The notes under the pieces were generated by a model. That model saw only the letters and a list, made by a program, of their open reading frames with translations. It made no database searches and was not told where the DNA came from. From a virus: a stretch of 20,344 bases of DNA. The position numbers were made by a program, and so were the translations under genes. The stretch lies in the IMG/VR virus record IMGVR_UViG_3300044295_000495, positions 1 to 20,344 of that record. One strand, 5' to 3'. How positions within the stretch are numbered: the stretch's first letter is position 1; each line of letters begins with the position of its first letter. This document shows positions 4,106 through 17,590 of the stretch, one piece after another.

Positions 4106-4325
4106 GATCAAAATCCCAGGCGAGGCTCTGAATGGCCAGCATCTCGTTACAGAGTTGCCGATCCTTGGATGAGTGTTCGTTGTGCAGCGCTCGTGAGCGT
4201 CTCCACGCAGTCTTCGCAACACACCGCGCATACTTCCGCCGCATCGAGCGGGGATAGGGCGCTGAGGTGAGTTGCTGGTAGAGGTGAGTTCTGAGGGCCT
4301 GTCTGGCCTGCTGCCGGTAATGCAT
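4095..4325 (-). CDS. Small basic protein overlapping the terS 3' end
   Basis: A 76-residue ORF from ATG 4325, in a different frame from terS and nested in its last 179 bases; its stop overlaps the next gene start by 11 bases. Support is the textbook ribosome site TTGAGGAG seven bases before the ATG, and the fact that the ORF closes the gap between terS and the 73-aa gene. The protein is basic and arginine-rich in its first half (MHYRQQARQALRTHLYQQ, later MRRKYAR), with C and H residues scattered later; no motif is recognised. The alternative is that the good Shine-Dalgarno is fortuitous and only the terS frame is used here. Confidence 0.5.
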   Translation of the reverse strand: MHYRQQARQALRTHLYQQLTSAPYPRSMRRKYARCVAKTAWRRSRALHNEHSSKDRQLCNEMLAIQSLAWDFDHAA

Positions 4326-4740
4326 GATGGATCTCCTCAACAATTTCCGCAAGAATGGTATTTTCTTGCAATTCAGCGTGGTCGCGCTTCGCCGCGATAT
4401 ACGCAGCGAGGTCATCATCGGCTTTCTTGGAGGCAGGCGTCTCTGCGCCCGTCCTCAGGAGCCGCATCCCCTTGAAAATCTCGACTGCGACCTTCGCATC
4501 CCCGTCGATCAGGGCCGTTTTGATCGCGTCATGGGCGAGCGGAATGAGCTCGTTGACAATTTTGTCTTCGTACTGGCCCAGAATGTCAGCTTTTTTCGCC
4601 CACGACAAGGTTCGAGTGACCGTGTCGGGGTGCACATTGAAGTCTTTGGCTATTTGCCCAACACTTTTGCCCTGCATGACCCGTGCTTCGATCATTTTGA
4701 GGGCTCTGAGCTTCTTGAATTCGTATGCTTGGAGGGACAT
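4147..4740 (-). CDS. terS: Probable terminase small subunit
   Basis: A 197-residue protein starting at ATG 4740, chosen over the upstream start at 4863 because AGGA lies 7 bases before it and the upstream start would sit in the promoter. Small terminases bind the packaging initiation site and stimulate TerL. Residues about 14-53 form a helix-turn-helix (GKSVGQIAKDFNVHPDTVTR). They are followed by a helical segment (IPLAHDAIKTALIDGDAKVA) of the kind used for ring oligomerisation, then Ala/Glu-rich helices. The C-terminal 45 residues are low in helix, contain a short Cys cluster (CAVCCEDC) and overlap another ORF. First gene of the leftward operon. A different HTH regulator cannot be excluded. 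Confidence 0.7.
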   Translation of the reverse strand: MSLQAYEFKKLRALKMIEARVMQGKSVGQIAKDFNVHPDTVTRTLSWAKKADILGQYEDKIVNELIPLAHDAIKTALIDGDAKVAVEIFKGMRLLRTGAETPASKKADDDLAAYIAAKRDHAELQENTILAEIVEEIHHALPAAGQTGPQNSPLPATHLSALSPLDAAEVCAVCCEDCVETLTSAAQRTLIQGSATL

Positions 4741-4861
4741 CACAAGTCCTACAGGGGTTGCTTGTGGGGAGAATGGCCCGGACCACCATGCTGAACAGGT
4801 GGAGGAGGGGGCACCCGGCACGATGCGGGCCATTCTTGAAGTTGGGGCGGCGACAATGAGC

Positions 4862-4889
4862 ATTATAGCACAGTTTGGGGCCTGCGCAA
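4862..4889 (-). promoter_or_regulatory. Leftward sigma70-type promoter of the packaging operon
   Basis: On the minus strand a perfect TATAAT (4867-4862) is preceded by TGC, giving an extended -10. A TTGCGC (4889-4884) lies 16 bases upstream as the -35. Transcription would start near 4855, leaving a leader of about 115 bases before terS at 4740. This is the best host-type promoter seen in the window. Confidence 0.6.
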
Positions 4890-4946: not shown

Positions 4947-4978
4947 TTTTTCACGGCCCTTTCAGGGCCTGTGAAAAA
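4947..4978. repeat. Hairpin with TTTTTCAC/GTGAAAAA outer arms
   Basis: Outer arms TTTTTCAC (4947-4954) and GTGAAAAA (4971-4978) enclose an inner stem GGCCCT/AGGGCC with a TTC loop and a single bulged T at 4970. The right-hand copy at 16267-16299 has the same outer arms but a different inner stem, and both are followed by the same 12-mer. Confidence 0.75.
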
Positions 4979-4982
4979 ACCT

Positions 4983-4994
4983 GTAAGTGATTGA
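4983..4994 (+). promoter_or_regulatory. 12-mer GTAAGTGATTGA, copy 1
   Basis: The exact 12-mer GTAAGTGATTGA starts 4 bases after the hairpin at 4947-4978. The second exact copy is at 16318-16329, again downstream of a hairpin with the same outer arms. Its role (activator site, part of an unusual promoter or origin) is unknown. Confidence 0.6.
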
Positions 4995-5028
4995 GTGGAT
5001 TGGAGTTAGAGTTTTCATGCTTTGTAGA

Positions 5029-5054
5029 TTTTCACGATGTATAAAATGTGAAAA
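5029..5054 (+). promoter_or_regulatory. Candidate rightward promoter box inside an operator dyad
   Basis: TTTTCAC (5029-5035) and GTGAAAA (5048-5054) are exact inverted repeats with a 12-base spacer that contains TATAAA (5040-5045), a -10-like box. A protein bound to this dyad would cover the box. No convincing -35 hexamer is present at 16-18 bases upstream, so the promoter would need an activator, or the box is only AT-rich DNA. Confidence 0.35.
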
Positions 5055-5175
5055 GTGGGATTTTGTCGAGAAAACGTGGGGTTTTCACGTTTTCTGGGGT
5101 GAAAACTTTGTGAAATTTTCAGGGGGTTGAAAAACGTAGAAGTCTTTTGTTTTGTTACAGTTAGGTGGGTTTGGC

Positions 5176-6846: not shown

Positions 6847-6882
6847 TGCTCAGTCAGGGCCAACCCCGGCCCTGACTGAGCA
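6847..6882 (+). repeat. 15-bp perfect hairpin, copy 1 of duplicated element
   Basis: TGCTCAGTCAGGGCC (6847-6861) and GGCCCTGACTGAGCA (6868-6882) pair perfectly around loop AACCCC. The core 6850-6879 matches 11272-11301 at 28 of 30 positions. No U-tract follows; the ribosome site AAGGAG of the next gene starts in the last base of the stem. Confidence 0.8.
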
Positions 6883-11066: not shown

Positions 11067-11301
11067 CCGCATCGGAAGCCGTGTCTACTGCACGACGTGT
11101 CGCAACCTGAAGAAGCCTATTGGTCGGAGCGCACCACTTGGCAGCTGGTATTGCGACGACGACTGCCCAGGCTACCGGGAGGAACCGCACGTGGGCTCAC
11201 TGTGGCCGGGTGAGCGTGCGTCAGAGTTTGGCTATCCGGTGTCGGATGTCGGCACTGAGCCCTCGCCCTCTTCAGTCAGGGCCGACCACGGCCCTGACTG
11301 A
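11053..11301 (+). CDS. Zinc-binding phage protein ending in a hairpin
   Basis: An 82-residue protein from ATG 11053 with GGAGGAG 8 bases upstream. C13-x2-C16 (YCTTC) and C34/C38 (WYCDDDCPGYR) form a plausible zinc site, followed by the compact segment PHVGSLWPGERASEFGYPVS. Its last 10 codons and its TGA stop are supplied by the second copy of the duplicated 30-base hairpin (11272-11301), so its C-terminus is probably an insertion or recombination product. Function unknown. Confidence 0.7.
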   Translation: MAARDRIGSRVYCTTCRNLKKPIGRSAPLGSWYCDDDCPGYREEPHVGSLWPGERASEFGYPVSDVGTEPSPSSVRADHGPD

Positions 11302-11302
11302 A
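11271..11302 (+). repeat. 13-bp perfect hairpin, copy 2 of duplicated element
   Basis: TTCAGTCAGGGCC (11271-11283) and GGCCCTGACTGAA (11290-11302) pair perfectly around loop GACCAC. The core is 28 of 30 identical to 6850-6879. Here the element is partly coding and provides the stop codon of the preceding gene (TGA 11299-11301). No U-tract follows. Confidence 0.8.
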
Positions 11303-11901: not shown

Positions 11902-11976
11902 TGGGGGGTAGCATAGCGGTAATGCGCCAGCCTTTGAAGCTGTCAGACAGAGGTTCGAATCCTCTCCCCCTAGCCA
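11902..11976 (+). tRNA. tRNA-Gln (anticodon UUG), CCA encoded
   Basis: The cloverleaf folds by eye. The acceptor stem is TGGGGGG/CCCCCTA (one G-U pair), positions 8-9 are TA, and the D arm is GCAT/ATGC with loop AGCGGTA. The anticodon arm is CCAGC/GCTGT with loop CTTTGAA, giving anticodon TTG (reads CAA) and one C-U mismatch at the top of the stem. The variable loop is CAGAC and the T arm AGAGG/CCTCT with loop TTCGAAT. Discriminator G73 is followed by CCA (11974-11976), and a second CCA follows directly (11977-11979). It lies alone between two genes. Confidence 0.9.
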
Positions 11977-16202: not shown

Positions 16203-16321
16203 TGCTGCTGATCGTGGTGGGAGTGGTCATGTTGTTTCCAGTATGTCAGTCACTGTGGTCAGGGTTTTTTCAGTCTATCTCTATAAGAGATAGTGAAAAC
16301 TCCTCAACAAACAGACCGTAA
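16202..16321 (+). CDS. Possible small membrane peptide over the control hairpin
   Basis: A 39-codon ORF whose ATG overlaps the previous stop (TAATG). Residues 1-24 are hydrophobic (MLLIVVGVVMLFPVC); the rest is polar. Its 3' half is made of the hairpin 16267-16299, and its stop falls inside the 12-mer GTAAGTGATTGA. Coding is therefore uncertain; the control-region reading is preferred and the ORF may be an accident. Confidence 0.35.
   Translation: MLLIVVGVVMLFPVCQSLWSGFFQSISIRDSENSSTNRP
16267..16299. repeat. Hairpin with TTTTCA/TGAAAA outer arms, copy 2
   Basis: TTTTCA (16267-16272), two bulged bases, CTATCTCT (16275-16282), loop ATA, AGAGATAG (16286-16293), TGAAAA (16294-16299). The outer arms equal those of 4947-4978, while the inner stem differs but still pairs. 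It is followed by the 12-mer at 16318. Confidence 0.75.
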
Positions 16322-16371
16322 GTGATTGATACAACAAGGGTTGTTCACTTTTCAGGGTTGTGAAATTTATG
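16318..16371 (+). promoter_or_regulatory. GTAAGTGATTGA copy 2 plus TTCAC/GTGAA dyad
   Basis: GTAAGTGATTGA (16318-16329) is followed by ACAAC/GTTGT and by a TTCAC (16344-16348) / GTGAA (16360-16364) dyad with an 11-base gap. TTTTCAGGG at 16349-16357 also matches the motif near 5116. The start codon ATG 16369 lies directly behind. This looks like the operator/promoter region of the ATPase operon; no clear sigma70 hexamers are present. Confidence 0.55.
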
Positions 16372-16695
16372 TCACAGACACAGACACTTGCATTCGACCA
16401 GACCGCGTCCGAACGACTGGCCGAAATTCTACTGATGACCGCGATGACCGAGTCAGCCAATCCCATGACCCAATTCAGCGGGTCGCTTATTAGCACGCTG
16501 ATCGTGGGGGGCATCGTCCTGGCCATTGCGAGCCCCGCCGAAGCCATTGAGCGTAACAAGCAGAGCCTCCTCGGGATGGTCGATGAACTTCGCAAGAACA
16601 TCGAGGCCCTTGATGACGACACATTGCAGTCGTACCGAGAGGCCTACGGGAACTTGGTGAAGGTGGACGAAGGGGCCGAGCTCATCAAGCACTAG
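16369..16695 (+). CDS. Hypothetical protein with hydrophobic helix
   Basis: A 108-residue ORF starting at ATG 16369 (AGGG about 11 bases upstream); the GTG at 16360 is also in frame but is part of the operator. It has a helical N-terminus (LAEILLMTAMTESANP), a hydrophobic stretch SLISTLIVGGIVLAIASPA (about 40-60) that could be a membrane helix, and a coiled C-terminus (MVDELRKNIEALDDDTLQSY). First gene of the unit containing the RecA-like ATPase, one base before it. No family is recognised. Confidence 0.65.
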   Translation: MSQTQTLAFDQTASERLAEILLMTAMTESANPMTQFSGSLISTLIVGGIVLAIASPAEAIERNKQSLLGMVDELRKNIEALDDDTLQSYREAYGNLVKVDEGAELIKH

Positions 16696-16696
16696 T

Positions 16697-17590
16697 ATGT
16701 TTCTTCCAGCTGACGAATACTTGGCCTTGCCTCGAGAACCCCAACCCTGGGTCGTAGACAAACTCGTGCCTGTGGGGGGACTCGTCAATGTGTTTGGCAA
16801 GCCCAAGACAGGCAAGTCTTTTGTGGCCCTGGGGATGGCGGAAGCCATTGTCACTGGCCAACCAGACTGGGAAGGATTTGCCATCAAGAAGCATGGACCT
16901 GTCGCCTACTTGCAGGTAGATACTCCACGCGAAGAGTGGGCCACACGGGTCGAGCGTATCCAGAAAGCGACGGGCCCCGACAAGTTGTGGATTGCCGATA
17001 TGTGGATGGTGCCGGAATTTCCATTCAATATTCTGAATCCACAGAATACGGAAGTCCAGTGGCTCAAAGATCACTTGGCCCGAATCAAACCCGTCATGGT
17101 CATCATCGATACCCTTCGAGAGATTCATGCAGGCGATGAAGACTCGAGCACCACCATGCGCAATGTCATTGCGAATTTGGTGGGCGCGTGTCGGCCCGCC
17201 GCCATCGTTCTTGTGAGTCATAGTCGAAAGGATTCGGTGATGACCCAGACGGGTGTAGATGATCTCATGGATCAACAACGGGGATCGTCATATATCTCAG
17301 GACGTATGGATGTCATCGCGAAGGTGACCGCCAAACGCCTCACATTCAAGGGTCGTGCCACAGGGCAGATGACCTATCCGATTCATCAAGATGAGCGAGG
17401 ATTCATTCATGTCGAACGAGACGGCGAAGACGCCTTTGAAGACGCCCGAAAGATCGTCGCCGACAAGTACGTCGGCAAATCCATCAACGTCCAAGCCGAG
17501 CACATCGCCCGGTTGGCAGGCATCAGCCACTCCACCGCGTATCGAAAACTTCGAGACTGGACTGCCAAGCACGAGCAACTCAGCGACTAA
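16697..17590 (+). CDS. RecA-like/RepA-like ATPase with C-terminal HTH
   Basis: A 297-residue P-loop protein. Walker A is FGKPKTGKSF (33-42) and Walker B is VMVIIDTLRE (133-142, acid D138). VSHSRKD (173-179) matches the sensor region of the AAA_25/RepA-DnaB-like family that also includes phage replicative helicases. After about residue 250 a short helical domain with NVQAEHIARLAGISHSTAYR (264-283) is a helix-turn-helix. The protein is probably a replication ATPase or helicase loader that binds DNA by its C-terminus. A primase domain is absent. It sits behind the second control site, which would fit an origin or autoregulated operon. Confidence 0.8.
   Translation: MFLPADEYLALPREPQPWVVDKLVPVGGLVNVFGKPKTGKSFVALGMAEAIVTGQPDWEGFAIKKHGPVAYLQVDTPREEWATRVERIQKATGPDKLWIADMWMVPEFPFNILNPQNTEVQWLKDHLARIKPVMVIIDTLREIHAGDEDSSTTMRNVIANLVGACRPAAIVLVSHSRKDSVMTQTGVDDLMDQQRGSSYISGRMDVIAKVTAKRLTFKGRATGQMTYPIHQDERGFIHVERDGEDAFEDARKIVADKYVGKSINVQAEHIARLAGISHSTAYRKLRDWTAKHEQLSD

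Follow-up and report, generated by a model that had tools for sequence, protein, structure and literature searches.

Two distant putative control regions of a phage genome share lineage-specific half-sites and a 25-bp palindromic box at a fixed distance

Inverted copies of the short word TTTTCAC crowd into the space between two divergent phage operons and recur 11 kb away in front of a RecA-like ATPase operon, raising the question of whether one protein acts at both places and what it would do there. We analysed these sites in a 20,344-bp fragment (IMG/VR virus record IMGVR_UViG_3300044295_000495, positions 1 to 20,344), hereafter the window. TTTTCAC was found 7 times versus 2.67 expected, a count reached in 0 of 100 shuffles, at 4948+, 4971-, 5029+, 5048-, 5082+, 5099- and 16293-. 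Six of these seven TTTTCAC/GTGAAAA copies fell within 158 bp (4948-5105), far above the two or fewer per 160 bp of shuffled DNA, which bears out the earlier note's count of at least six half-sites in 187 bases between the divergent operons; its further observation that one dyad encloses a TATAAA box also held, at 5029-5054. For the shorter word TTTTCA, the richest 160-bp stretch of the window held eight copies from 4972 and the second richest three from 16267, the maximum per 160 bp across 60 shuffled windows being three; all shuffled controls were first-order and modest in number. The half-site group of region 2 (16267-16366) is smaller than that of region 1 (4948-5133), and the AT-richest 100-mers of the window are these two regions. 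Both dyads that had been placed before the ATPase operon are present there, but only in part as described: 16267-16299 reads TTTTCAG..TATAA..GTGAAAA, with an exact half-site at one end and TTTTCA at the other, and the pair at 16344-16366 is imperfect. The features of the two regions and their flanks are as follows.

4147..4740, minus strand: small terminase subunit (HTH), start at 4740 taken from alignment to relatives
4862..4867, minus strand: TATAAT of an extended -10 promoter (TGnTATAATGC) before the small-terminase operon, conserved in relatives
4948..4977, unstranded: half-site dyad TTTTCAC-GGCCC-TTTCA-GGGCC-T-GTGAAAA, with inner palindrome
4984..5008, plus strand: region 1 box TAAGTGATTGAGTGGATTGGAGTTA, top matrix score in the window (18.4)
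5012..5017, plus strand: lone half-site TTTTCA
5029..5054, unstranded: half-site dyad TTTTCACGATGTATAAAATGTGAAAA with TATAAA inside, 26 bp from the region 1 box in the minus-strand reading
5082..5105, unstranded: half-site dyad TTTTCACGTTTTCTGGGGTGAAAA
5110..5133, unstranded: degenerate half-sites GTGAAA and TTTTCA..TGAAAA
16267..16299, unstranded: region 2 dyad TTTTCAGTCTATCTCTATAAGAGATAGTGAAAA, centred on TATAA and containing an inner palindrome
16319..16343, plus strand: region 2 box TAAGTGATTGATACAACAAGGGTTG, 25 bp from the right half-site, second matrix score (15.8)
16344..16366, unstranded: imperfect half-site pair TTCAC/TTTTCA..GTGAAA, where the downstream gene starts
16360..16695, plus strand: small ORF of 111 aa in the region 2 operon, with a homologue at the same place in relative G019
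16697..17590, plus strand: AAA_25 (RecA-like/RepA-like) ATPase with C-terminal HTH-like helices

A second element common to both regions, overlooked by the earlier note, is a 25-bp palindromic box, TAAGTnnTTGATT..AAGGACTTA. The 12-mer GTAAGTGATTGA, present at 4983 and 16318, is one arm of this imperfect palindrome, and terminase relatives carry the same 25-bp box upstream of their small-terminase gene. We built a box matrix from 19 boxes of relatives, excluding the window; the second regions of G019, G003, G004 and G028 had no part in it. Across the window this matrix scored 18.4 at 4984, 15.8 at 16319 and at most 7 everywhere else. Over 150 shuffles the highest second-best score was 10.6, short of 15.8, a value that the best score attained twice. 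The region 1 boxes of relatives match the matrix by construction, the independent matches being those of the window and of region 2 in G003, G004 and G028. Compared by eye with the IHF consensus WATCAANNNNTTR (PMC10380432), one strand of the box is exact at 16319 (TATCAATCACTTA) and has one mismatch at 4984 (ACTCAATCACTTA); since the box is conserved on both arms, we call it IHF-like only. In most relatives with two or more boxes before terS, these recur every 76-92 bp.

Both regions follow one layout, in which a half-site is followed after 20-30 bp by an inverted half-site, after a further 24-26 bp by the box, and then by more half-sites. A strict de novo scan for any TGAnnn dyad with the box at 24-26 bp returned two matches only in the window (16294 on the plus strand and 5034 on the minus strand), 1.58 Mb of shuffled DNA giving none, and it revealed a new region 2 in G028, at 11139. 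Relaxed rules gave 12 matches in 1.43 Mb of shuffles and one in 237 kb of genuine sequence from unrelated phages and plasmids. By eye, two exceptions to the layout were seen: the gap in G022 is shorter, at about 12 bp, and region 2 of G019 has an imperfect dyad with a gap of 25.

The phage has almost no annotated relatives, megablast of the window against 50,697 phage records giving no match and a single distant terminase match being found among the same records. Relatives were those gathered with the large terminase as query (64% identity and others); the ATPase alone as query retrieved nothing, a three-sequence ATPase alignment retrieved only two contigs, both already in the relative set, and a literature search by sequence motif returned nothing relevant. 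One relative, G019, is 51 kb long with a 23-bp terminal overlap, indicating a probably complete genome, and is syntenic with the window through portal, terL, terS, region 1, early genes, GP88, region 2, the small ORF and AAA_25.

The terminase relatives retained the layout, and the half-site word changed by lineage among TTTTCA, CTGTCA, GGTTCA, TGTTTCA and GTGTCA. The word enriched before the TGnTATAATGC promoter was TTTTCA in the window, CTGTCA in G001 and G005 and GGTTCA in G002 and G004; inspection and later scans gave TGTTTCA/TGTGTCA in G003, TGTGTCA in G024 and G026, CTGTCA in G022 and TTTTCA in G019. Because the words of relatives were picked after inspecting region 1, it is the agreement at region 2 that is independent, and the two regions carried an identical word in four genomes (the window, G019, G003 and G004). 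Across the whole G019 genome the two richest TTTTCA clusters were region 1 and the one lying upstream of AAA_25; GGTTCA in G004 likewise had its two richest clusters at the two regions, and in G003 TGTTTCA had four copies in 16.6 kb, two per region. A third G019 cluster, near 26.0 kb on the rotated map, was discarded, having no dyad and lying mainly in coding DNA. G028 has an ATGTCA dyad in region 2 and GTTCCA and TGACAC-like sites in region 1, words less clearly alike, so it was not counted as a matching-word case. The TATA at the dyad centre is not conserved in all relatives (CCCTTTAGGG, CCCTTAAGGG). Dyads scattered through coding DNA, or an array missing from related phages, had been named beforehand as grounds for abandoning the idea of shared control; instead, the richest G019 clusters proved to be regions 1 and 2, and the array persisted among the relatives.

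As the word is lineage-specific and the same in both regions of four genomes, it is very probable that each lineage has a single trans-acting phage protein that binds both, and we consider it likely that a shared protein acts at the two regions, whatever its role. This agrees with the single phage DNA-binding protein proposed in the earlier note, be it a repressor or an initiator; the HTH of the ATPase, named there as a candidate, stays a candidate only. Candidate binders are the TerS HTH, which varies between lineages, the C-terminal helices of AAA_25 and a ribbon-helix-helix (RHH) protein. An AlphaFold model of the ATPase from a three-row alignment was poor (mean pLDDT 46, the C-terminal helices alone reaching about 67-86), and on the strength of this model the ATPase HTH was set aside; region 2 lies away from the ATPase gene in G028. 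An RHH profile from G003, G004 and G028 found no homologue in the window fragment or in the probably complete G019, and an RHH protein as universal binder was rejected, the gene being found in three genomes only. The RHH protein omega of pSM19035 binds arrays of short asymmetric heptads with a TCA core at several loci. The present half-sites resemble these heptads in being short and asymmetric, with a TCA core, at several loci, but they are arranged in pairs about a box whose distance is constant, and an RHH gene accompanies them in three relatives only.

The sequence itself shows the half-site array and the box, their constant spacing, the presence of two such sites and the way in which their half-sites diverge together. 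From this we infer that regions 1 and 2 may each be a copy of a single composite cis-element. A protein encoded by the phage would bind the half-sites as dimers on inverted pairs, recognizing a lineage-specific word (here TTTTCAC), and an IHF/HU-type bending protein, or another dimer, would occupy the 25-bp box at its fixed 24-26 bp from the dyad, a spacing that would give the same folded complex at both places. Such paired origin-like sites would start replication and also set adjacent promoters, those of the late operon at one side of region 1 and of the ATPase/replication operon after region 2. We tentatively favour this function, by analogy with oriL/oriR of phage SPP1. In SPP1 about 13 kb separates the two origins, which consist of repeats and AT-rich DNA and are served by one origin-binding protein; one of them is embedded among replication genes, and the other occupies a long stretch between genes that contains regulatory signals (PMC6316719). 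Like this lytic phage, whose origin-binding protein is gp38, the present genome carries two separate sites with the same repeats, each AT-rich; the SPP1 repeats are direct, whereas the present half-sites form inverted pairs in alternation with a 25-bp palindromic box set at a constant spacing.

Region 2 heads the AAA_25 ATPase operon in the window and in G019, where by eye the AAA_25 gene is followed by ORFs resembling a nuclease, an ATPase and a polymerase (compare the annotated phage ctVRi840). A box array precedes an AAA_25 gene in an unrelated phage, which supports the origin reading, and several unrelated annotated phages carry a similar box near primase, helicase or other replication genes, and elsewhere too. 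The SPP1 arrangement, the place of region 2 before AAA_25 and the boxes near replication genes lead us to prefer paired origin-like sites to operators serving transcription alone. Against an origin stands the varying gene context of region 2, which adjoins an RHH gene in G003, G004 and G028 and in G028 is not beside the ATPase gene. GC skew showed no turn at either region (in G019, minimum at 11.5 kb and maximum at 26.8 kb, rotated map) and was dropped as an uninformative origin marker.

More speculatively, and with considerable doubt on our part, the constant scaffold (25-bp box and fixed 25-bp gap) together with an exchangeable word could form a two-site nucleoprotein switch in which the word is a self/non-self code; if so, no phage would initiate or control the replication of a co-infecting relative. 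Word variation on constant geometry amounts to a natural experiment: as lineages differ in word while geometry stays constant, the binder can be sought by co-variation and a word-swap tested directly. The layout also provides a sequence-level rule by which the pair of control sites can be located in phages that have hardly any annotated relatives.

A close rival to paired origins, possible and by our estimate somewhat less probable, is that the sites are operators only, with a phage repressor or activator switching the divergent late and early operons and the ATPase operon, and no origin. Each region lies directly upstream of an operon, the conserved extended -10 promoter stands beside region 1, and the half-sites form inverted pairs, the arrangement that dimeric regulators usually use; the RHH gene beside region 2 in three relatives, with the heptad arrays of omega in mind, fits as well. 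On the other hand, we looked for a sigma-70 -35/-10 pair at region 2 and found none, the dyad-centre TATA is missing in some relatives, and a regular box array every 76-92 bp exceeds the needs of a simple operator. A sigma-70 promoter inside the TATA dyads was likewise considered and rejected, no -35 partner being found.

Less likely than such operators, and in our judgement improbable, is that region 1 is a cosB-like packaging site where the small terminase sits on half-sites across an IHF bend. Lambda cosB has the order R3-IHF-R2-R1 with R2 inverted (PMC9026076). It resembles region 1 in having repeated sites, one inverted, around an IHF site (I1) next to terS, although IHF is identified here by consensus only; region 1 occupies the matching position just upstream of terS, and the TerS HTH varies between lineages. 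Yet, unlike cosB, the same element appears again 11 kb away (16267-16366), so that a genome holds two of them, the second distant from terS, and up to four boxes are present; contig G021 has a terS without such a region in front; and the TerS recognition helices of G019 and G022 are alike by eye while their half-sites differ (TTTTCAC versus CTGTCA).

That only the box matters, as a generic host IHF/HU site with the TTTTCAC half-sites an AT-rich by-product, we regard as very unlikely. Most boxes do fit WATCAANNNNTTR on at least one strand (consensus as in PMC10380432), and the box recurs across many unrelated elements. As at IHF sites in att, oriT and origin regions of mobile elements, one box arm fits the consensus, and comparable boxes adjoin tRNA genes and, in IncW plasmid R7K, stand upstream of a small gene that is followed by the coupling-protein and relaxase genes; but here the box is kept as a 25-bp palindrome on both arms, beyond what IHF requires. 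Moreover, the half-sites cluster far above shuffles, their word changes jointly in both regions, words such as GGTTCA and CTGTCA are not AT by-products, and the dyad-box gap is fixed. Chance clustering of the half-sites, contradicted by both the shuffle controls and conservation among relatives and with no point found in its favour, can be dismissed.

The box was also seen in plasmids, in bacterial genomes and away from replication genes, a further point against the origin reading. Many of those in bacterial genomes look like tRNA-flanking terminators or the repeat family of one Microscillaceae MAG, so the bacterial matches are not evidence for phage function. In MAG Prado074 (L107 and other contigs) the palindrome TAASTSNTTGANNNTCAANSASTTA occurs 35 times, often next to the common flank cagcaattcccacta; these copies probably belong to a repeat or transposon family. 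The 12-mer GTAAGTGATTGA was discarded as a phage-specific repeat after a viral-contig scan gave mixed, mostly unrelated contexts. The arm CGTAAGTCGTTGATTTT has three copies before a TATAAT in phage DLP_6 (L206/L231), and its near-full palindrome lies upstream of mobilization-side genes in plasmids R7K (L204) and BPP5P1 (L205). Phage ctVRi840 (L269), which has a distant AAA_25 gene, carries repeated ATTTCCGC/GCGGAAAT half-sites upstream of terL at about 34500-34700, a region from which the 25-bp box is absent.

The window encodes a structured leader RNA (4770-4836, minus strand) that lies between the promoter and the start of terS and forms a long hairpin with an unpaired CU-rich loop, CCTCCTCC. 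No Rfam family matches it; relatives of the leader occur in G001-G005, G019, G024 and G026-G028, and a GTTGCAG/ATTGCAG bulge is conserved in those aligned. Across six relatives, 14 of 27 pairs showed changes on both sides, a number reached in 0 of 500 shuffles. A tRNA-Gln (anticodon ttg) lies within the early gene block at 11902-11976, and two perfect palindromes, CAGTCAGGGCC..GGCCCTGACTG, nearly identical to each other and lacking a T run, occupy 6848-6881 and 11271-11302. Near the early-gene start of G019, three near-identical, operator-like palindromes of the type TTTTGGGACATGATGTCCCAAAA lie at 5004, 5765 and 6625 of the rotated map.
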